From contig MGQQ01000027.1 of assembly GCA_001798855.1 (NCBI GenBank), forward strand, positions 1 through 39,642: a stretch of 39,642 nt of DNA, written 5' to 3'. The stretch is from Deltaproteobacteria bacterium RBG_16_49_23. GTDB lineage: Bacteria; Desulfobacterota; BSN033; UBA1163. A program made the translations under genes and the position numbers. Under the pieces are notes generated by a model that searched no databases, was not told where the DNA came from, and was given only the letters and a program-made list of their open reading frames with translations. This document shows positions 5,882 to 39,642 of the stretch, piece by piece; position 1 is the first letter of the stretch, and each line of letters begins with the position of its first letter.

Positions 5882-7144
5882 ATGGAAAGACTGGAAGGAT
5901 TATTGAAGGAGACCTGGCATTTTTATAAGAAAACCCTGGGTTTGGTCTCCAGGGGAAGTAAGATCTATTATGCCTGGTGTTTCTCCCTGCTTGCCATTAT
6001 CATCGTGGGCTTTATCTTCTATTGGGAGCAACATGAGATGGGCCTGATCGAAACGAACATGACCGACCAGGTTTCGTGGGGTCTCTATATTGCTAACTTC
6101 ACCTACCTCGTGGGAATGGCTGCCGCAGCCGTACTCCTGGTGATCCCCTCTTATATCTATCAATTCAAACCGATCAAGGAGATCGTCGTCCTCGGAGAGC
6201 TCTTTGCGGCCTCCTGCATGGTGATGGCCATTCTCTTCGTCATGGTGGATCTTGGAAGGCTCGACCGGGTCTGGCACATGCTTCCTTTTGTCGGATCGAT
6301 GAACTTCCCCGCTTCGCTTCTGGCCTGGGATGTTCTGGCTCTAAACGGCTATCTCTTTTTAAACCTCCTCATTCCGATTTACCTGCTGGTAAAATCTTAT
6401 TATGGAAAAGAACCCAACTGGAAATTCATCCTTCCCTTCATCCTCCTCTCCATCCCATGGGCTGTCGGAATTCATACCGTCACCGCTTTCCTGTACAACG
6501 GCCTCGCCGCCCGTCCCTTCTGGAATGCATCGATTCTGGCCCCCAGGTTTCTGGCAAGCGCCTTCTGTTCAGGTCCTGCCATTATCATCATCATTTTTCA
6601 GATCATCCGAAGGGTTTCCGCCATCAAGATAGAGGACAAGGCCCTCTTCAAGGTCGCAGAATTGATTGCCTATTCGATGTTTCTGAATCTCTTCCTTCTC
6701 GGTGCGGAGATATTTAAGGAATACTATTCCGGTACGGTTCATATGGCGTCCTTCAAGTACCTCTTTGAAGGCCTTCACCACCATAATGAACTCGTCCCCT
6801 GGATTTGGACGGCCATGGCGATGAACGTTACCGCCTTTATCCTCTTCCTGGTTCCATCAACGAGAAAACGTTTAAGCACCCTCAACCTGGGGTGTCTCCT
6901 GGTCATCGTAGGGGTGTGGATTGAGAAAGGGCCCGGGTTTGTCATTCCCGGATTCGTTCCAGACCCTCTCGGTGAGATTTATGAATATGTCCCCAATCTT
7001 GTAGAGCTCATGGTCTCTTTCGGCATCTGGGCGACAGGCCTCCTGATCTTCACCCTTTTGATGAAGGTGGCCATCCCTATTGAGACCGGGGAATTCAGCC
7101 ACACGGAATATGAGAAAGGGACCTACACCTTTAAACGTCACTAA
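5882..7144 (+). CDS. NrfD/PsrC-family membrane subunit, module 1
   Basis: About 420 residues with roughly ten hydrophobic helices, the DsrP/HybB type of NrfD protein that binds quinone or quinol in the membrane. I chose the ATG at 5882 because AGGAAAAG lies just before it; a TTG at 5864 inside the preceding gene is less likely. Recognisable pieces are YWEQHEMG near residue 40, WGLYIANFTYLVGMAAAAV near 62, VDLGRLDRVWH near 122 and the loop HMASFKYLFEGLHHHNELVPW near 290. The protein completes the tetrahaem / Fe-S / NrfD module and would exchange electrons between the menaquinone pool and its periplasmic partners. The direction of electron flow cannot be told from the sequence. Confidence 0.92.
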   Translation: MERLEGLLKETWHFYKKTLGLVSRGSKIYYAWCFSLLAIIIVGFIFYWEQHEMGLIETNMTDQVSWGLYIANFTYLVGMAAAAVLLVIPSYIYQFKPIKEIVVLGELFAASCMVMAILFVMVDLGRLDRVWHMLPFVGSMNFPASLLAWDVLALNGYLFLNLLIPIYLLVKSYYGKEPNWKFILPFILLSIPWAVGIHTVTAFLYNGLAARPFWNASILAPRFLASAFCSGPAIIIIIFQIIRRVSAIKIEDKALFKVAELIAYSMFLNLFLLGAEIFKEYYSGTVHMASFKYLFEGLHHHNELVPWIWTAMAMNVTAFILFLVPSTRKRLSTLNLGCLLVIVGVWIEKGPGFVIPGFVPDPLGEIYEYVPNLVELMVSFGIWATGLLIFTLLMKVAIPIETGEFSHTEYEKGTYTFKRH

Positions 7145-7234
7145 AAAAGCCTCAGCAACAGAGAAATAATGAATCCATGAAGGCAGGAAGTAAAGAATCC
7201 TCCTGGGTTCTTGGCTTCCTTATTATAAAATTGA
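7145..7234 (+). terminator. Imperfect hairpin after module 1
   Basis: AGGAAG and AAGAATCC on the left pair imperfectly with GGGTTCTT and CTTCCT on the right at about 7184-7220, followed by an AT-rich tract. The placement fits a partial terminator that separates the two modules. Confidence 0.4.
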
Positions 7235-27258: not shown

Positions 27259-27305
27259 ATTCCGAATTCCGACCCAAAAACAGAGATAGGAATTCTCCAT
27301 CAATC

Positions 27306-27328
27306 CCCTCTCCCTTGACGGGAGAGGG
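27306..27328. repeat. Palindrome after the amidotransferase gene
   Basis: CCCTCTCCC (27306-27314) and GGGAGAGGG (27320-27328) form a 9-bp stem around TTGAC, followed by TTAGGGTGAGGG. It could terminate the operon. An interrupted relative is found around element C. Confidence 0.75.
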
Positions 27329-27452
27329 TTAGGGTGAGGGTGATAAATCACCAGAATGGTTACCCCTCCCCTTATTAGTCCCCTCCCGCAAGGGGAAGGG
27401 ATTTACGGTGGACGGTAAAATTCTATGTCGGGATTTGGGTCCGATATATAGA

Positions 27453-27515: not shown

Positions 27516-27767
27516 ATGCCTCTCAGCGTACGTCTCGATAAAAAGACCGATTCTTTGCTTGAGCAGACCGCCTTAACACTTAAGACTAGCAAGGCCGAAG
27601 TGATTAAACGATCACTCTCGGATTACTGTGCCCGTGTTCTCGCTGGAAGACGGAAGCAACCTTATGAAATGATAAAAGATCTATTGGACAAACCCGGAAG
27701 CGGAAGGAGTGATCTTTCTTCAAGAAGCGAAGAGATTCTACGGCAAAGATTCAGGAGGAAAACTTGA
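27516..27767 (+). CDS. Ribbon-helix-helix (CopG-type) antitoxin
   Basis: 83 residues after AAAGGGGTGATG. The N-terminus MPLSVRLDKKTDSLLEQTA gives a beta strand and first helix, and LKTSKAEVIKRSLSDYC the second helix, which is the ribbon-helix-helix DNA-binding layout. The C-terminal half is charged and probably flexible, and would wrap the toxin. The stop overlaps the start of the PIN protein gene by four bases (27764-27767). The palindromic promoter upstream fits autorepression. Confidence 0.88.
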   Translation: MPLSVRLDKKTDSLLEQTALTLKTSKAEVIKRSLSDYCARVLAGRRKQPYEMIKDLLDKPGSGRSDLSSRSEEILRQRFRRKT

Positions 27768-28177
27768 TTCTTATCGATACGGGTCCCATCGTTGCTTTAT
27801 TTGATAAGGACGACCGGTATCATACCCAATGCCTTGAAATTCTCAAGGAAATGAGAGAGCCTCTTGTAACCACATGGCCTGTCCTCACAGAATGTTTTTA
27901 CCTGCTAAATTTTTCATGGGAAGTTCAAGATAGTCTTTGGCTTTTTATCCGGAGAGGTGGAATCGAAATTTATCACCTCGGACAAGACCTCCTTATACGG
28001 TGCCACGAGTTGATGAAACAATATAGCGACCTGCCAATGGATTTAGCCGATGCAACCCTGGTGGCGCTTGCAGATTTTCTCGAAGTCCATAAAGTATTCA
28101 CCCTCGACCATAAGGATTTTTCAATTTACCGGTTCAAACAAAAAAAACGCTTTACACTTATCCCCTCAATAATTTGA
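27764..28177 (+). CDS. PIN-domain RNase toxin (VapC-like)
   Basis: 137 residues starting at a TTG codon that overlaps the antitoxin stop. The acidic residues of the PIN active site are present: Asp5 in ILIDTGPIVALFD, Glu43 in WPVLTECFYLL, Asp in MDLADATLVALA (about residue 97) and Asp in FTLDHKDFSIYRF (about residue 117). PIN toxins cleave tRNA, rRNA or mRNA in a Mg2+-dependent way when freed of antitoxin. The type fits a VapBC-like module with a CopG-type partner. The gene ends 30 bases before the fossil type I-E repeat. Confidence 0.9.
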   Translation: MILIDTGPIVALFDKDDRYHTQCLEILKEMREPLVTTWPVLTECFYLLNFSWEVQDSLWLFIRRGGIEIYHLGQDLLIRCHELMKQYSDLPMDLADATLVALADFLEVHKVFTLDHKDFSIYRFKQKKRFTLIPSII

Positions 28178-28207
28178 TTTTAACCATATCCCTCGTAATC
28201 CAAATTA

Positions 28208-28241
28208 ACCGGTTGATTCATCCCCGCGTGTGCGGGGAACA
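28208..28241 (-). repeat. Solitary type I-E CRISPR repeat
   Basis: Read on the minus strand it begins GTGTTCCCCGC, then ACAC, then GCGGGGATGAA, a textbook type I-E repeat with its GC-rich hairpin. The first 26 bases fit the canonical form; the last few (TCAACCGG) deviate from the usual CCG end. No second copy, spacer series or leader is present, and the sequence is unrelated to the 37-nt repeats of the large array. Confidence 0.85.
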
Positions 28242-28424
28242 CGTTCCGGGTTCCAGCATGATACAGACGAGCCCTCCTACAGGAATGTGAGTTCGAACTC
28301 CGTTTTTATCCACAACAACGAAGGCCCCATCGAGAACGTCAATGTTACCTTTTTCCACGTGGGCCACCGAAATGCGGTCCTTGATGGGAATAGGTTTAAG
28401 GGGAGGAAGAATGGGTTCGGTCAT
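28242..28424 (-). pseudogene. cas1: Truncated type I-E cas1 (first ~60 codons)
   Basis: The frame begins MTEPILPPLKPIPIKDRIS and runs through GNIDVLDGAFVVVD, GVRTHIPVG and CIMLEPGT, in clear agreement with the N-terminal domain of Cas1 of the type I-E system. After LEPGT the sequence changes at once into the I-E repeat, and translation ends in CSPHTRG from the repeat itself (formal stop at 28218). The catalytic C-terminal domain with the metal-binding Glu, His and Asp residues is gone, so this cannot integrate spacers. The start keeps an AAGGAAGTG ribosome site, which overlaps the end of the BRO-N gene. In intact I-E loci the order is cas1-cas2-repeat array, so one deletion from within cas1 to a repeat explains the remnant. 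Confidence 0.9.
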
Positions 28425-28431
28425 GGCGCAA

Positions 28432-29259
28432 TCACTTCCTTTCTATCTTCTTCATTCCCTGGGGAGTTGTCAGATAGTTTTCGCGTGAGACGACCCGCCT
28501 GCCGGTTTTCTGTTCAAGGTCTTTTCTTGCTTTGCCGGCGACTTCTCCTCCCTTACGTGCAGAATGCTTGCTTTCTTGAAATCCTTTCGCATCATCAACC
28601 CGCGTTATTTCGGTCGTAGCCGCTTCGCCCAGCATTGAAAATATGAGCTCGAGATCGTTCATATGATCCCGAAGATTTTCTCGTTTCAGCCCTTTTATTT
28701 TCTTGTGTTTTCCCGGTGTTATGCCGAAGGCGGCTTTTGCGATCTCGGCGGTAAGTATCGCGTACTCCCTCTCACGCCTTACCTCCCTATTTTTCCACTC
28801 CTCCGTAAGCTCTTCCCTGATAGCAATGCCGCGCATCCGCTTTTCAATCCAATCATCGGAATAACCCTTCGCCTTATAGAGTGTCCGCGTCCTCTTCGTT
28901 CCCAGCTCCGGGTCTTCGATCTCCTGCACCCGCTCGTAGCCAACCTTTGCCAGCCAGCGCTTGAAAGGCTCGGCTTTGGGCGAGGGAACTGACTGAATGA
29001 TGCGAAAGATGCCTTCAGTGTTGGCACAATCGGTTTCTCTCAGTTTTCCGTCCGGAGCAAGCAACTTCAACCCGTGACAAAGTGTCACGACTTCACTTCC
29101 TTCTCCCCTGAGTCTTTGTTTCAATTTCCTCCAGTATGCTCCAGCATCTGCGCTTTCAGTCAGAACAGCGCATACATCCACAATTGAAAACCACCACTCA
29201 TTGCTGTGAAGTGTCTTTCTAATTTCCTTCCCCTTAAAAACTGCTATATTTGTCTCCAT
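28432..29259 (-). CDS. BRO-N domain protein (phage antirepressor-like)
   Basis: 275 residues after an AAGGAGAT site. The N-terminal 110 residues fit the BRO-N domain: FKGKEIRKTLHSNEWWFSI, then VDVCAVLTESADAGAYWRKL and the FRIIQSVPSPKAEPFKRWLA motif near 90-110. The rest is helical and highly charged, with a conserved RERE YAILTAEIAKAAFGI-like segment, as in the BRO-type proteins found scattered in bacterial genomes. BRO-N occurs in viral and prophage regulators and is thought to bind DNA. No other phage gene is near. It lies between the trailer end of the CRISPR array and the cas1 remnant, seven bases before the latter, so it may have arrived with the event that broke the I-E locus. Confidence 0.87.
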   Translation of the reverse strand: METNIAVFKGKEIRKTLHSNEWWFSIVDVCAVLTESADAGAYWRKLKQRLRGEGSEVVTLCHGLKLLAPDGKLRETDCANTEGIFRIIQSVPSPKAEPFKRWLAKVGYERVQEIEDPELGTKRTRTLYKAKGYSDDWIEKRMRGIAIREELTEEWKNREVRREREYAILTAEIAKAAFGITPGKHKKIKGLKRENLRDHMNDLELIFSMLGEAATTEITRVDDAKGFQESKHSARKGGEVAGKARKDLEQKTGRRVVSRENYLTTPQGMKKIERK

Positions 29260-29285
29260 TGTAGGATCTCCTTATCGAATCTGTG

Positions 29286-32200
29286 CTTAATGACCTTGTT
29301 TTAATGGAATCCGCTTTCTAACGGTGATGATCATGAATCTTTGCCCTAAGTCAATGCGGTTTCAATCCTTGTTTTAATGGAACCCGTCCTCTAACCTGGA
29401 CTCCATCATCAGATTGAAAGGAGAAAGAGAGTTTCAATCCTTGTTTTAATGGAACCCGTCCTCTAACCAATGCTGATTTGCACCGTACTATAAGGTCCGC
29501 AATGTTTCAATCCTTGTTTTAATGGAACCCGTCCTCTAACTCAACAAGACTGTATCTACCCAGGGAGATATTCAGAGGGGTTTCAATCCTTGTTTTAATG
29601 GAACCCGTCCTCTAACCCACAAGCGAGCTTGAGACGGTCTTGGATTCGTCAGTGTTTCAATCCTTGTTTTAATGGAACCCGTCCTCTAACTCCGCTCCTA
29701 TCAAGGGTTTGCTGGCGATAGATTATGGGTTTCAATCCTTGTTTTAATGGAACCCGTCCTCTAACCCTTCTCACCGGCAGCCTCGGCTTCAAGGGCGGCC
29801 CTGTTTCAATCCTTGTTTTAATGGAACCCGTCCTCTAACGCAATATGGATTTTGGCAAGAAGTTTTTGAACCGGCAGTTTCAATCCTTGTTTTAATGGAA
29901 CCCGTCCTCTAACTCCTCCTTTCCCCGTAGGCCGGTAGGACAGCCAGGATTGTTTCAATCCTTGTTTTAATGGAACCCGTCCTCTAACATCCGCATTTAG
30001 GGCAGTACATTTTTACCTCTCTTGTTTCAATCCTTGTTTTAATGGAACCCGTCCTCTAACATATACATTAAGAGCGCATCTGGCAAAGGGGCCCTGTGTT
30101 TCAATCCTTGTTTTAATGGAACCCGTCCTCTAACTCCTATGCCACAGACAAACCAGAGCAGGCAAAGCAGTTTCAATCCTTGTTTTAATGGAACCCGTCC
30201 TCTAACTGTGTCGGGATACTTCTTTAGGCATCCCATCGATCTTGTTTCAATCCTTGTTTTAATGGAACCCGTCCTCTAACCTTCCCTCCTTGATCCACCC
30301 AATCATTGGAATTGGGTTTCAATCCTTGTTTTAATGGAACCCGTCCTCTAACGGGATGAAGATTTATTTCATGCTGCTAACTGTTTATTGTTTCAATCCT
30401 TGTTTTAATGGAACCCGTCCTCTAACTTGACCTGGTATGGCCGTTCGAGATCGAATCCTGGGGTTTCAATCCTTGTTTTAATGGAACCCGTCCTCTAACC
30501 CTTCTCACCGGCAGCCTCGGCTTCAAGGGCAGCCCTGTTTCAATCCTTGTTTTAATGGAACCCGTCCTCTAACCAACACTTGTAAAAACCACTTCTTGAC
30601 AGCCAACCTGTTTCAATCCTTGTTTTAATGGAACCCGTCCTCTAACACTCTTAACCGAGATTACTAAAACCTATCTCTATTGTTTCAATCCTTGTTTTAA
30701 TGGAACCCGTCCTCTAACAGAAATGATCTGTCTTGAAAAAATCGCTTGACTTTAGTTTCAATCCTTGTTTTAATGGAACCCGTCCTCTAACATACATGGA
30801 TAAATAGAAACATCTGAAGCATTCGTGTTTCAATCCTTGTTTTAATGGAACCCGTCCTCTAACCAGAATGCATGCCAGATATATTTTTCTTGCCTCCCGG
30901 TTTCAATCCTTGTTTTAATGGAACCCGTCCTCTAACCCGCTCTCTTTCAGGGCCGACCAGTGCAAAGCTACCTGGTTTCAATCCTTGTTTTAATGGAACC
31001 CGTCCTCTAACGTTGAGGGTCCGCTTATTTCATCCCATCCCATTATAGTTTCAATCCTTGTTTTAATGGAACCCGTCCTCTAACTATTTAATGCCTGCTT
31101 GTAAGATCGGGCTTGACTGTTGTTTCAATCCTTGTTTTAATGGAACCCGTCCTCTAACCAGGTAAGACGGCCCTGCTGTTAAACCTATGTTGGAGTTTCA
31201 ATCCTTGTTTTAATGGAACCCGTCCTCTAACGGGATGCACCTCAAAGGGTTCTCTGTCTGCGAAATTGTTTCAATCCTTGTTTTAATGGAACCCGTCCTC
31301 TAACTCGAATTTCATTTGGTGTCATAATTCAATTATAAAGTTTCAATCCTTGTTTTAATGGAACCCGTCCTCTAACATGACAAGTTTTTCATCGTTTTAT
31401 GCCGGCCCTGGTGTTTCAATCCTTGTTTTAATGGAACCCGTCCTCTAACAAAGAGAGAGTGTAGGGAGTTTAAACTGGAGAGGAGGGTTTCAATCCTTGT
31501 TTTAATGGAACCCGTCCTCTAACCTCGATTTCTATCATGGTCACCTCCCATTAATTTGGGTTTCAATCCTTGTTTTAATGGAACCCGTCCTCTAACCCCT
31601 TTGGTTGATGCTGGATATGGGAAAAAGGAGGTGTTTCAATCCTTGTTTTAATGGAACCCGTCCTCTAACTCAGACATTACAAAATTGGACACCAATGCAG
31701 GCGAGTTTCAATCCTTGTTTTAATGGAACCCGTCCTCTAACACAAGAGTTTACGGAAACCCTTCAACAAGCCAACTTGCCGTTTCAATCCTTGTTTTAAT
31801 GGAACCCGTCCTCTAACTGCCCGAAAGCCTCTGGGCTATTCCGAAGATGAGATGTTTCAATCCTTGTTTTAATGGAACCCGTCCTCTAACATTAAAATGC
31901 GAATTGCTTTTCGGAAAGATTGGATCGAGTTTCAATCCTTGTTTTAATGGAACCCGTCCTCTAACGACAAGAAAAAGCTCGTCGAGCGAGTGGCGCCAAA
32001 ATGTTTCAATCCTTGTTTTAATGGAACCCGTCCTCTAACAAAGGAGAACGAAGAGGGGGTATTGTAAGGGCAGATGTTTCAATCCTTGTTTTAATGGAAC
32101 CCGTCCTCTAACCAATCGGCATCCTCTCCGTAGGAAAGATACGGAGAAGTTTCAATCCTTGTTTTAATGGAACCCGTCCTCTAACGTGTGATTGTATCTT

Positions 32201-35200
32201 AATGTATTTCATCCTCCGAGTTTCAATCCTTGTTTTAATGGAACCCGTCCTCTAACATAATAATGATTCGTTTCATGGGAGCCCTCCTTTAAGTTTCAAT
32301 CCTTGTTTTAATGGAACCCGTCCTCTAACTACTGCAGAGGTATGTCATTGGAAGGTACTCCAAGGTTTCAATCCTTGTTTTAATGGAACCCGTCCTCTAA
32401 CTTTTACTCTGCATATCCCAAAAAACAAACCCAAACAAGTTTCAATCCTTGTTTTAATGGAACCCGTCCTCTAACAAACCGTCCCATATTTATCCAACAT
32501 AGGTTGAGAAGGTTTCAATCCTTGTTTTAATGGAACCCGTCCTCTAACACATAATGGAAAAACATAATGACAGAGGGAAAAAGAACAAAGTTTCAATCCT
32601 TGTTTTAATGGAACCCGTCCTCTAACGGCAAGAGACATCTGGGTAACGCCAGCCCTTAAAAGGTTTCAATCCTTGTTTTAATGGAACCCGTCCTCTAACT
32701 AGTGAGTAAGGCATTACCAGTCCCTTCGCTTGATGGTTTCAATCCTTGTTTTAATGGAACCCGTCCTCTAACTGAGCGGGTTTTACCGGCGGCACCGGGG
32801 CGGACTCGGTTTCAATCCTTGTTTTAATGGAACCCGTCCTCTAACTCGAGCGTGGTTATTTCATGAGCGCTCTGGATTCGTGTTTCAATCCTTGTTTTAA
32901 TGGAACCCGTCCTCTAACATCGATGCAGACCGATGTCGGGATCATCACTCCGGAGTTTCAATCCTTGTTTTAATGGAACCCGTCCTCTAACAATGGTTGA
33001 GCCATTTTATTGAACCTCCTTATTTTTGTTTCAATCCTTGTTTTAATGGAACCCGTCCTCTAACGTTTGGGACAACTTCGGCCTGTGCAAGCATGTCAAG
33101 TTTCAATCCTTGTTTTAATGGAACCCGTCCTCTAACATGAATTTCCTGGATGGACGAACAAGAAGCTACGGGGTTTCAATCCTTGTTTTAATGGAACCCG
33201 TCCTCTAACGATTCGATTACGGGGGATCGGAGAGAATGTTTGACAGTTTCAATCCTTGTTTTAATGGAACCCGTCCTCTAACTTCCGAACATCTTGCTGG
33301 AATGATTATGTCAAAGTTGTTTCAATCCTTGTTTTAATGGAACCCGTCCTCTAACAATCCCACCCTCTCCGCCAAATAGCCCTTGAAATTATGTTTCAAT
33401 CCTTGTTTTAATGGAACCCGTCCTCTAACTGAACTGCCCTTGTGGGGGAAAAATAATCAAGTTGAGTTTCAATCCTTGTTTTAATGGAACCCGTCCTCTA
33501 ACGATAAATCGTCAACCACTGCATTGCAGATAGGGTAGTTTCAATCCTTGTTTTAATGGAACCCGTCCTCTAACTCTTCGAGCTTTGTATCTTTCAGGCC
33601 CGTCCTTTGAAGTTTCAATCCTTGTTTTAATGGAACCCGTCCTCTAACCTTCAGGCTGGTATGTCGTCACCGGGCCATGCTGGTGTTTCAATCCTTGTTT
33701 TAATGGAACCCGTCCTCTAACTCATGTGCGCTGTCGGGTGCGTTGTGATTGAGCAGAGTTTCAATCCTTGTTTTAATGGAACCCGTCCTCTAACCTGTTC
33801 CGGCGCTCCCATCTGGTACAGTTATACTAAAGTTTCAATCCTTGTTTTAATGGAACCCGTCCTCTAACTCCTGCAGCAGGGCCCTGAGCTACAGGAGGTT
33901 TCCGAGTTTCAATCCTTGTTTTAATGGAACCCGTCCTCTAACGAATACTTCCTGGTGGGAAATTGCTGGCGATCGAGGGTTTCAATCCTTGTTTTAATGG
34001 AACCCGTCCTCTAACTCATCCCTCCCTTCGGCTTTGGCGATAGCTTGTCTGTTTCAATCCTTGTTTTAATGGAACCCGTCCTCTAACGGCAGAACAATAA
34101 ATCTCCCTGCCGCTGACATTGGGGTTTCAATCCTTGTTTTAATGGAACCCGTCCTCTAACTTATCCTCAGATTCCCCCCAGTACCTGGATATTGGCGGTT
34201 TCAATCCTTGTTTTAATGGAACCCGTCCTCTAACCGGGGAGCCGGGATGCAACGTCGTGACGCCGCTGGTGTTTCAATCCTTGTTTTAATGGAACCCGTC
34301 CTCTAACAGAATAAGCCTACCGTTGGAGACTCAATCAACAAGTGGTTTCAATCCTTGTTTTAATGGAACCCGTCCTCTAACTCTTGGAACAAAAGGCGGA
34401 GACCAGAACTACCCTCAATGTTTCAATCCTCGTTTTAATGGAACCCGTCCTCTAACACTTGTAGGTATGAAGTCTATGGCCATCCGTAGCAAGTTTCAAT
34501 CCTTGTTTTAATGGAACCCGTCCTCTAACAAGATAGGAATAGGCATGGCTGGAAGCCCCATCAGGTTGTTTCAATCCTTGTTTTAATGGAACCCGTCCTC
34601 TAACTGGGAAGTTACCAACTCAAAGGTGATTGCAATTTGTGTTTCAATCCTTGTTTTAATGGAACCCGTCCTCTAACAAAGAGTTGACGCAAAAGGCCAT
34701 TGAATTAGCCGAGTTTCAATCCTTGTTTTAATGGAACCCGTCCTCTAACTCATGTAAGATACTCTGCATAGCCACATTGTCTGCAAGGTTTCAATCCTTG
34801 TTTTAATGGAACCCGTCCTCTAACTTGAGCAAAAAAGCCAGGTCATTTGCAGTCCTCACATGTGTTTCAATCCTTGTTTTAATGGAACCCGTCCTCTAAC
34901 TTGTGCAGGGGGATAGTAGGTATCTTCGGGGAGTGATGTTTCAATCCTTGTTTTAATGGAACCCGTCCTCTAACATTACAGCGTAAGAACCGGAGAGAAG
35001 GGCGCATTTAAGTTTCAATCCTTGTTTTAATGGAACCCGTCCTCTAACCATCACTCGTATAACCTTCCAACCGAAACCCGGGAGTTTCAATCCTTGTTTT
35101 AATGGAACCCGTCCTCTAACTATTATTGAACTTTTCAATGTTAATAACTCTGTGGAGTTTCAATCCTTGTTTTAATGGAACCCGTCCTCTAACTTGATAA

Positions 35201-35339
35201 TGGTTGAGGCATGTTTGTTTCCTCCTTTTTGTTTCAATCCTTGTTTTAATGGAACCCGTCCTCTAACTTGACGGAGGTTAAGGATCGAGACATCGATGCT
35301 ATGTTTCAATCCTTGTTTTAATGGAACCCGTCCTCTAAC
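29286..35339 (-). CRISPR. CRISPR array: 82 intact 37-nt repeats plus one degenerate repeat
   Basis: By hand count 82 full repeats start at 29359, 29431, 29504 and so on to 35303, mean period 73.4 bases. Read on the plus strand the repeat starts GTTTCAATCCTTGTTTTAAT and ends GGAACCCGTCCTCTAAC. All appear identical except the copy at 34420, which has C for T at position 12. A degenerate copy at 29286-29322 marks the old, distal end. Spacers are 34-41 bases, mostly 35-37. On the minus strand the repeat ends in ATTGAAAC, the usual 8-base crRNA handle, so transcription runs from right to left and new spacers enter at the right, next to the cas genes. Two spacers (29766-29802 and 30500-30536) differ by one base. 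Confidence 0.98.
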
Positions 35340-35513: not shown

Positions 35514-37399
<1,886 letters not shown>

Positions 37400-37411
37400 A
37401 ACACTGAAACC

Positions 37412-37981
37412 TCATGGTTTTTCATTAAGTTTAATTTGAATAGCCTCCCAGATTTCGTTCAGCCCCAAACGTCCTGCCCAGTGGTCAATATATGCACGGT
37501 CGATCTCCTCTCCACTTACCTCCAGAATTCCTGTAATATCACGGAGATGTTTTTCCGACCCTCCCTCTTTGTAGAACTCCATCTTTTTAATGATTACATC
37601 CTCGGGAGAGGCAAAATACGTATCTTGATCAGGGAATAGAGCGCCCCTGTTTCTACGGGCAAATTCCGTTTTAGAAAATGGCGTTGTCTTTAGCAGAATG
37701 ATGTCAATTTTCAGTCCGGAAGTGCTATGAAGAATGTTGAATTGACCTCGCCTTTTAATTTCCGCCTCTATCATTTCCTTGTCACAATAAAATTCAATTG
37801 ATGGGAAATAGGTGATGAAAGTTTCAACCTGCGCAGGGTTTATATCAGCTACGATATCAATATCTCTCGTGAAGCGAGGTTCGCCATAATATGCGGACGC
37901 TTGAGAACCGGTAATCATATAAGGAATCCCTGTAGCTTCTAAAGCTCGTATAACCAAACGGACGAGTTCACTTTGATCCAT
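37412..37981 (-). CDS. Nucleotidyltransferase-fold protein embedded in the cas operon
   Basis: 189 residues. ITGSQASAYYGEPRFTRDIDIVAD (about residues 23-46) has the GS-x(n)-DxD nucleotidyltransferase signature, and IDIILLKTTPF near 95 would give the third acidic residue. The domain arrangement is that of DUF6036/AbiEii-like proteins, many of which act in toxin-antitoxin or abortive infection systems by transferring nucleotides to tRNA or protein targets. It overlaps the small gene upstream by 14 bases and ends 12 bases before cas1, so it is probably cotranscribed with the cas genes. A role in the CRISPR response is not shown; it may be a passenger. Confidence 0.85.
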   Translation of the reverse strand: MDQSELVRLVIRALEATGIPYMITGSQASAYYGEPRFTRDIDIVADINPAQVETFITYFPSIEFYCDKEMIEAEIKRRGQFNILHSTSGLKIDIILLKTTPFSKTEFARRNRGALFPDQDTYFASPEDVIIKKMEFYKEGGSEKHLRDITGILEVSGEEIDRAYIDHWAGRLGLNEIWEAIQIKLNEKP

Positions 37982-38192
37982 ATGTAACCCGCTTCACAAT
38001 CTCTTTCCGGATCTCCTCTTCTGTCCATTCAGGATGCTTATTTTTCAGATAGGCCCTGATTGTCTTCTCATAAAAAGTCCACGCATCCCAGACCATGTTC
38101 AGGCGTTCCATGCCTGATTTTGCCTTCAGTATTTTTACAATCCTATCATCCACGACCTCGATCTGTCCTTTATCTAACCGCAACGTCTTCAT
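37968..38192 (-). CDS. Small partner of the nucleotidyltransferase
   Basis: 74 residues. MERLNMVWDAWTFYEKTIRAYL and HPEWTEEEIRKEIVKRV are the marks of a small helical family often found directly before DUF6036-type nucleotidyltransferases. The proposed role is that of cognate antitoxin or accessory protein, by gene pairing only. The start overlaps no other gene; 30 bases of repeat-like sequence (ACTGGTCACTGAACACTG) separate it from cas6. Confidence 0.75.
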   Translation of the reverse strand: MKTLRLDKGQIEVVDDRIVKILKAKSGMERLNMVWDAWTFYEKTIRAYLKNKHPEWTEEEIRKEIVKRVTYGSK

Positions 38193-38222
38193 TTTACTCC
38201 TTATCTTCTTACTGATAACTGG

Positions 38223-38906
38223 TCACTGAACACTGTTCACTCTCTTTACCGTCCCAAACCCCCGCGACACCGACTTCCCAATCCCCCAATAATCCGGAAT
38301 CTCAAAATTCACAGAGAAATTCCCAAGGAAGCCAAGCATGGGAGTACCTTTGAGAGATGTTTTAACTTCCTTGAGATTATTTATGTGAGCTTCGATGGGT
38401 GCAGGCACCGTATACCCCAAACTCTTCGACATCGAAATAATATTCCCGATGAGAATCTTCTCTAGGAGATCCTTCTTCTTCCCCCAGCCTCCAAGCATTT
38501 TGTATTTTTGGTAGTTCTTTTCATTTAAAGCAAGCCAGGGGGTGAGGAAGGAGTAGGATTGAACAGTCTCAGTGGTTTTTATTGAGATATGATGAAATTC
38601 TAATTCTGTATTGAGGATAGTATAATATTCATACCCTAAAAAAAGTGTTTTTGTTGCCAGTTCAAGATTGGCAAGGAGTTCTGCTCCATTTTTGAATCCA
38701 ACAAGCAGACATTCACCATTAATTATCTTATACTGTACAAGAGGATGGTGGTAATCAATTTTCCCGTCTTCACGATGTTGATGAAGTAATCGTTCTTCGG
38801 GATAGAGATTGGACACTGCTCCGCGCAAGTCTTTGGTTTTAACTTTCCGATCAAGCAGTCGGTCAAACTTGAGTTTGAGAATACAGAGTCTTATTTTATC
38901 ATTCAT
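38223..38906 (-). CDS. cas6: CRISPR RNA endonuclease, Cas6 (Cas6b-like)
   Basis: 227 residues. The N-terminal part has [18 protein letters not shown] and [20 protein letters not shown], as in the Cas6b group, and the C-terminus has the glycine-rich loop [16 protein letters not shown] of RAMP proteins. Cas6 cuts the precursor crRNA eight bases before the spacer, leaving an AUUGAAAC handle here. The catalytic histidine is probably among those near residues 42-52 or in EFHHISIK, but I cannot fix it. The start overlaps the cas3 stop by four bases. The order cas3-cas6-(insert)-cas1-cas2-cas4 is unusual for type I-B, where cas6 normally comes first. Confidence 0.85.
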
Positions 38907-39642
38907 AATATTAACACTTCCCCAGTAGAATCATCATCTAAAACCAAACCTTGATCCTTAGAATAAAATCTATCGTGTAATATCCACTGTCCCAAATATT
39001 CAGTTGCAATATCCTGTGGATCAAATCCGCGTTTTGCATATACACTAACCGAAATTTTTGTTATCCTGCCTGCAATTGCTCGCCATGCCTCTCTCCGCTT
39101 CCAACGGTCGTCTATATTATTTGCTTTTGTCATCTCATCTTTTAATTCAGGATCCTGTTTTATAACAAGAAAGGTGTATTTCTCCCGTTCTTTTCCCCGA
39201 AGTAGTTCTTTGACAGACTTATCTTCCTCCCATCTGGCAAATTTTTTAAGATGCTCCATCCCTGTATCCTTCTTTGTGGTCAACATCTCAAAGTAGCGAT
39301 CTGCAAGAGGTAGAATATCCTTTTCTTCAATCTCTGTAATCTCCTCTGTTAGTTGTCGGGTAACCTGCAAATGAACATCATCGTACACCATATCGGAATA
39401 CCGCTTCCCCTGTTCATTGCTCAGGTCAACGACCTCAACAGTTGCCGGATGAGATAGTCTGCCGTTGCGATTACAACGGCCAGCAATTTGGATTAAGCTG
39501 TCAAATGGAGCAAAGTCTCGAATTACAAAATCCATATCAATGTCACCCCCTGCCTCTATGCACTGAGTTGACACAACAATACAGGGATTATCTTCCTTGA
39601 TAGTCTTTATAGCATCTAACCTATCCTGTGGAGTTACATCTG
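38903..39642 (-). CDS. cas3: CRISPR-associated helicase Cas3, C-terminal part (runs off the window)
   Basis: About 245 residues are visible; the reading frame is open to the right edge, so the HD nuclease and first helicase domain lie outside. The visible part begins in the second RecA-like domain: [18 protein letters not shown] (helicase motif V region) and [16 protein letters not shown] (motif VI, with the arginine finger residues). The remaining 180 residues are the Cas3 C-terminal region. Cas3 unwinds and degrades target DNA after recruitment by Cascade. Cascade genes (cas5, cas7, cas8) are expected further to the right. No frameshift is seen. Confidence 0.92.

Follow-up and report, generated by a model that had tools for sequence, protein, structure and literature searches.

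Cas loci without a nearby array are common, and in the survey of Zhang and Ye (2017; PMC5294841) they make up 12% (236 of 2001) of type I cas loci. ORFs with a RhuM domain are reported in Bacteroides fragilis, where they lie between cas1 and cas9 (PMC5704556), and also next to R-M and PrrC-like genes (PMC3710099). The database PADLOC-DB contains candidate systems as well as known ones. Among open-access papers, we found no report of a Bro-N gene directly beside cas1e. Here we analyzed a contig of 39,642 nucleotides from Deltaproteobacteria bacterium RBG_16_49_23 (the whole stretch is called the window below), and we conclude that one locus in it is very probably the deletion remnant of a type I-E operon like that of Syntrophaceae UBA2208 (locus L004 of genome G013). 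The features are as follows, with strand in brackets.

27266..27440 (no strand): dispersed repeat element with many matches in the genome and in relatives, located where synteny breaks next to the putative remnant
27516..28177 (+): VapBC-like pair of small genes, ribbon-helix-helix-like and PIN; the PIN match is above the cut-off and the ribbon-helix-helix match just below it
28217..28242 (-): single type I-E repeat, its first 26 of 29 nt identical to the L004 repeats
28242..28424 (-): cas1e stub, codons 1-61, from TIGR03638, PDB Cas1 chains and alignment to the L004 cas1e
28432..29259 (-): intact Bro-N family (BRO) gene of 275 codons, from PF02498 and PDLC04920
29260..29281 (-): ribosome-binding-site region of the Bro-N gene, the 5' border of homology with relatives; the compared relatives diverge beyond it
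29286..29322 (-): last repeat of the neighbouring type I array, degenerate in sequence and immediately upstream of the Bro-N gene
29359..35339 (-): array of the other type I system, with 82 repeats of 37 nt (81 identical, one with a single change) and 81 spacers
35514..39574 (-): cas genes of the other type I system: cas3 (partial, near the contig end), cas6, an AbiEii-like ORF, cas1, cas2 and cas4

The open frame at 28424..28221 (-) has 68 codons, which read MTEPILPPLKPIPIKDRISVAHVEKGNIDVLDGAFVVVDKNGVRTHIPVGGLVCIMLEPGT followed by CSPHTRG and then a stop. Residues 10-62 match the Cas1e profile TIGR03638 in a profile search (1.2e-12; profile positions 2-55 of 269), and residues 8-65 match solved Cas1 chains in the PDB at about 1e-21 (four distinct Cas1 sequences); the Pfam profile search gave no match for the short stub. 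An earlier note on this DNA had taken the frame for the N-terminus of Cas1e and had named a lack of Cas1e similarity in residues 1-60 as grounds for giving that up; these matches bear its assignment out. The last seven residues of the frame, together with the stop, are a translated type I-E repeat, which comes directly after cas1e codon 61, as the note had read it, so that base 28242 is common to both. At 28218-28242 (-) the I-E repeat core is matched without a single mismatch, the number of matches expected from shuffles being 0.00. All 13 repeats of L004 read GTGTTCCCCGCACACGCGGGGATGAACCG, and the window agrees with them over the first 26 of the 29 bases but continues with TCA where they have CCG, so that the repeat is of the same type as those in the relative's array. 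The note had drawn the finding to 28208, which is 9 bases beyond the 26 that match the repeat. The VapBC-like pair lies on the far side of this single repeat.

We then compared the locus with its relatives. A scan of genome contigs with the stub protein provided the best 80 of at least 396 relatives, among at least 591 stretches, and the closest of these 80 by stub protein was L004. Its operon, with genes confirmed by profiles, has the order cas3-cse1-cse2-cas7-cas5-cas6e-BRO-cas1e-cas2e-array with 13 repeats, and the Bro-N gene directly before cas1e likewise has 275 codons. The alignment with a complete I-E locus that the earlier note had called for shows that the window is collinear with L004 at 86% DNA identity over 1033 ungapped bases (29274 to 28242) and then jumps to the repeat; the homology begins at the ribosome-binding site of the Bro-N gene and runs as far as codon 61 of cas1e, after which only the array repeats match. 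In 77 of the 80 loci the open cas1e frame extends over 302 codons or more, counted from the match; in L008, L077 and L080, which make up the rest, it reaches the contig end. The L004 Cas1e has matches (1e-8) in 46 of 395 genomes of the phylum sample, among which the match in the window is the only one that consists of the N-terminus alone. In L004 itself, positions 6966-7166 between cas6e and Bro-N look, by eye, like the tail of another cas6e, which would suit a replacement of the effector half upstream of Bro-N-cas1-cas2.

The earlier note had described the rest of cas1, cas2, the leader and the array as missing, and the other I-E genes for which we searched the source genome were not found in it either. 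This genome is a MAG of 3.83 Mb in 171 contigs and is 93% complete, so that missing genes could lie in gaps. The stub is the sole I-E Cas1 found in it, the other Cas1 match belonging to the neighbouring type I system, and the sole I-E repeat match (up to three mismatches) is the one in the window. Profile searches of the MAG for cas7e, cse1 and cas6e gave 0 matches; these three profiles match the L004 proteins, and each matches in two of 14 control genomes, the E. coli control not being one of them. Within the 17 genomes of the family, I-E cas7 and full Cas1e are present in G013 only. A functional I-E system would need a complete cas1e, at least two I-E repeats and Cascade (cse1, cas7e and cas6e), and the MAG offers 61 codons, one repeat and none of these three Cascade genes. 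With only a small part of Cas1 left, and with one repeat that has neither a leader nor Cas6e or Cascade to serve it, the I-E part at this locus is presumably dead and unable to give immunity.

How might such a junction have arisen? We propose that a deletion would have run from cas1e codon 61 to the 5' edge of one downstream array repeat, and that the same deletion would have taken cas1e from codon 62, cas2e, the leader and all repeats but one. The loss of cas3 to cas6e upstream of the Bro-N gene would be a separate, second event, as a result of which the trailer of the other type I array now abuts the Bro-N gene; the degenerate terminal repeat of that array is within about 5 bases of the homology border at 29281. 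The single deletion suggested in the earlier note thus stands for the cas1-to-repeat side, where it is supported as the simplest account of the junction, but does not cover the loss of cas3-cas6e. The note had also offered GTG as microhomology at the junction. This we reject, because GTG occurs at that cas1e position in none of the 80 relatives, and against L004 only one base (G) is common to cas1e and the repeat. Carriage of the junction by phage was rejected as well, a search of viral contigs having given 0 matches. Self-targeting was considered as a cause of the loss and set aside: we matched all 81 spacers in the neighbouring array against 223 loci, six loci of the own genome being left out, and none in L004 was among the best 15 matches listed. 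The best match listed was 19 nt in L163 (E 1.6e-4), a locus that holds a Bro-N gene and helicase-like ORFs; the best of the reversed spacers was 16 nt.

The age of the truncation was estimated from substitutions. The stub and L004 differ at 29 sites, 27 synonymous and 2 nonsynonymous (Nei-Gojobori), and one residue in 61 is changed. A stub that had drifted for the whole window branch would be expected to show about 47-78 nonsynonymous changes, and the nonsynonymous count bounds its neutral time to at most 8-13% of that branch, on the presumption that half of the divergence falls on the window branch. These few nonsynonymous differences show that the deletion took place recently in comparison with the separation from the UBA2208 lineage, although the substitution figures cannot tell whether the stub is now under selection. 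The word 'fossil' in the earlier note suggests an age that does not agree with a stub showing almost no decay. We regard the remnant as very probably real, as recent and as ordinary in kind.

The different type I system that the note had placed about 1 kb away is indeed there, with both array and cas genes, and its cas2 matches TIGR01573 (2.3e-14). Two spacers of this array (29766-29802 and 30500-30536) differ at one base of 37. The AbiEii-like nucleotidyltransferase ORF (37412-37981) lies between cas6 and cas1, which is again a position just before cas1.

The same genus provides two further loci of a related kind. DNA matches to the Bro-N piece were found in four of the 17 family genomes, namely the source genome, that of L004 and two same-genus genomes, and a class-wide protein search of 23 genomes found Bro-N in the same four. 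In L096, 31 nt of the cas1e start (27 identical) come after the Bro-N gene; about 197 bp of different DNA separate them from a further 29 nt of cas1e (23 identical), and next comes a cas3-like start with 47% identity over 38 residues to the cas3 of L156 (E 2e-5); genes of type I-C (cas3, cas5 and cas8) lie downstream. In L097, Bro-N is followed by 23 nt of the cas1e start (20 of 23 identical) and then by a cas3-like start with the region before it, both shared with L096 (83% over 115 nt). An I-C repeat with 3 mismatches comes about one spacer length (by eye) after this cas3-like start and is followed, by eye, by a spacer and a degenerate repeat.

L096:10759-11290: interrupted cas1e start and decayed cas3-like start upstream of the type I-C operon
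L097:5338-5474: type I-C counterpart, in which a cas3-like start of about 23 codons is separated by one spacer length from an I-C repeat

Taken together with the window, these loci indicate that in this genus I-E remnants adjoin the remains or genes of other type I systems. The Bro-N frame is open in all three same-genus genomes whose I-E genes are gone. The genome with L098 holds a second, broken Bro-N fragment on a separate contig (L098:9328-9650; 65% identity, in two pieces).

Several other origins for the window locus have to be weighed against deletion in place. It is conceivable, but in our view unlikely, that transfer or rearrangement brought the Bro-N gene and cas1e stub here as one unit. 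Outside the Bro-N-cas1e piece the window matches L004, L096 and L097 by short repeats only; its flank is syntenic with G013 up to 27266, where a glyS-like ORF (named by eye) and no CRISPR follows in G013; and Bro-N genes that accompany various CRISPR types or restriction genes are intermixed in the tree described below, all of which would suit a mobile piece. However, the end of the stub lies exactly at an I-E repeat, and deletion in place explains this simply.

A still less probable origin is an abortive Cas1-Cas2 event, or a break-repair event, at the repeat border rather than a random deletion by microhomology. This idea draws on the position of the join, within about 0-3 nt of the 5' edge of the repeat, and on L097, where about one spacer length separates the end of the I-C-like cas3 start from the I-C repeat. 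These are two cases only, however, and by our estimate a random end in a 61-nt unit would fall that near to an edge about one time in ten.

We consider it very unlikely that an assembler joined cas1e to a CRISPR repeat and unrelated flanks. Assemblies often break at CRISPR repeats, the sequence comes from a MAG, the stub has hardly decayed, and the junction is known from this one assembly, having been found neither in the 16 other family genomes nor anywhere else examined. Nevertheless, the one base shared at the junction against L004 is probably too little for a graph join, positions 28100-28500 contain zero N bases, the genome holds no other I-E repeat or searched I-E gene, and the two same-genus genomes have other truncated cas1e starts behind the same gene. 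Finally, a functional role for the small protein encoded by the 68-residue ORF, such as that of a Cas1e N-domain interfering with the Cas1e of incoming systems, is hardly credible: the frame is open, has a start codon and differs from L004 at one residue of 61, but its last seven residues derive from a CRISPR repeat, it is absent from the other 16 family genomes and it has existed for too short a time for selection on it to show.

Deletion from an I-E operon thus remains our preferred origin of the locus. The earlier note had overlooked the intact Bro-N ORF directly upstream, which holds its operon place, and we regard this gene, its place before cas1 and its survival as the more interesting part. 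The ORF matches Pfam PF02498 (1.1e-12, residues 13-105) and PDC-S13 of PADLOC (PDLC04920; 2e-121, residues 2-271), where PDC presumably denotes a candidate system. It occupies the same place as in L004 and 13 other I-E loci: in 14 of the 80 cas1e loci, which are no census since they were picked by likeness to the stub, a Bro-N homolog lies on the same strand and ends -8 to +32 bases from the cas1e ATG, overlapping it in nine. These 14 belong to Nitrospirae, Elusimicrobia, Desulfobulbaceae, Syntrophaceae or unplaced Delta- and Proteobacteria.

We also searched for Bro-N homologs irrespective of cas1e. At 1e-30 they occur at 64 places in 45 of the 395 phylum genomes, and 49 of the 64 places, the window and L096 included, were examined with wider flanks; the 15 dropped were the lowest-scoring, mostly partial matches, some with more than 60% local identity. 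Cas genes or an array are present in the fetched stretch for 16 of 29 homologs with at least 60% identity (raw counts) and for one of 20 below 60%, that one being a second copy in the same I-C operon; one genome (G102) enters both tallies, since L007 is identical to L155. The cas genes were sought with 16 queries and some stretches are short, so that misses are possible. In type I-C operons, Bro-N lies between cas7 and cas4 in L162 and, with further ORFs between, in L182, between cas4 and cas1 in L158, and between cas7 and cas1 among the genes resolved in L164. In L172 it adjoins an array whose repeat resembles that of type I-F. A restriction locus, L160, has the order hsdM-BRO-hsdS-hsdR, and in five others (L180, L174, L170, L157 and L173) the gene is beside methylase, helicase or restriction-like genes; homologs also occur in viral contigs (9 loci). 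ORFs of the RhuM family were seen in or beside two CRISPR operons, at L182:8987-9988 (Pfam, with a Fic domain) and at L156:9002-9544 (by eye). We conclude that the Bro-N family occurs in defence operons and can outlive the system around it. Against L004 and L096 its dN/dS is about 0.05-0.06, which may mostly record the time before the loss; the gene in the window is intact and is probably still expressed.

The relationships among these proteins are not simple. In a tree of 55 BRO proteins, labelled from neighbour genes and partly by eye, no label forms one clade. The I-E label needs 12 changes on the tree, where shuffled labels need 16.6 on average (no more than 12 in 3 of 500 shuffles); the corresponding values are 7 against 15.4 for unlinked genes (0 of 500), 9 against 9.4 for I-C (224 of 500) and 6 against 5.8 for restriction (500 of 500). 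Thus the I-E and unlinked labels are clustered, and the I-C and restriction labels are not. The window and L097 proteins are 47% identical in residues 29-85, where L097 is 86% identical to L023 (Nitrospirae); in residues 86-275 the values are 93% to the window and 85% to L023. Judging from these identities, residues 29-85 move separately from the rest of the protein, and an exchange of these residues alone may account for the position of L097 next to L023 in the tree. The most conserved stretch comes after residue 84.

Binding of DNA is the usual reading of the Bro-N family. The structure model of the protein is poor (mean pLDDT 61), and a Foldseek search with it gave no match at E <= 0.001; the best, at 0.014, was Deinococcus DdrC, a DNA-binding protein of the DNA-damage response. 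This weak match of a poor model is a lead only, and would point to DNA binding as the family reading does. A profile search against solved structures gave no match up to E 1, and the one match of a single-sequence search (E 0.69) was rejected as not credible.

Based on these results, we tentatively suggest, while holding it somewhat more doubtful than probable, that the Bro-N (PDC-S13) clade is a true accessory of defence operons, translationally coupled to cas1 in I-E, within I-C operons, by an I-F-like array and between hsdM and hsdS, with residues 29-85 as an exchangeable and maybe specificity-setting cassette, and that the gene is kept and reused when a system is deleted. If this is true, the remnant in the window would be one step of a turnover in which CRISPR systems swap around a persistent Bro-N gene. 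Apart from this, a young deletion and its intact relative show how a CRISPR operon is dismantled: the ends fall in cas genes, and one repeat and a neighbouring gene stay behind. The gene itself, which is uncharacterised, repeatedly stands ahead of the gene for spacer integration in CRISPR systems of more than one type and recurs in some restriction loci, and this recurrent position makes a defence role of Bro-N proteins testable.

Compared with known systems, the locus is most like the I-E system of L004, with which it shares the BRO-cas1e order, the 86% identity and the 26 of 29 repeat bases given above; L004 is complete, having all I-E cas genes and its 13 repeats, whereas the window has 61 codons of cas1e and one repeat. 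The remnants in L096 and L097 also have the Bro-N gene followed by the first cas1e codons, and L097 also has a type I-C-like cas3 start leading toward an I-C repeat, but their breakpoints and surroundings are different, and type I-C genes follow in L096 and a decayed piece only in L097. The isolated cas loci counted by Zhang and Ye (PMC5294841) are loci with at least three cas genes, while here there is one gene start and one repeat. Like the RhuM-type accessory genes, the Bro-N gene is found beside CRISPR and restriction genes, although RhuM (PF13310) is a separate Pfam family.
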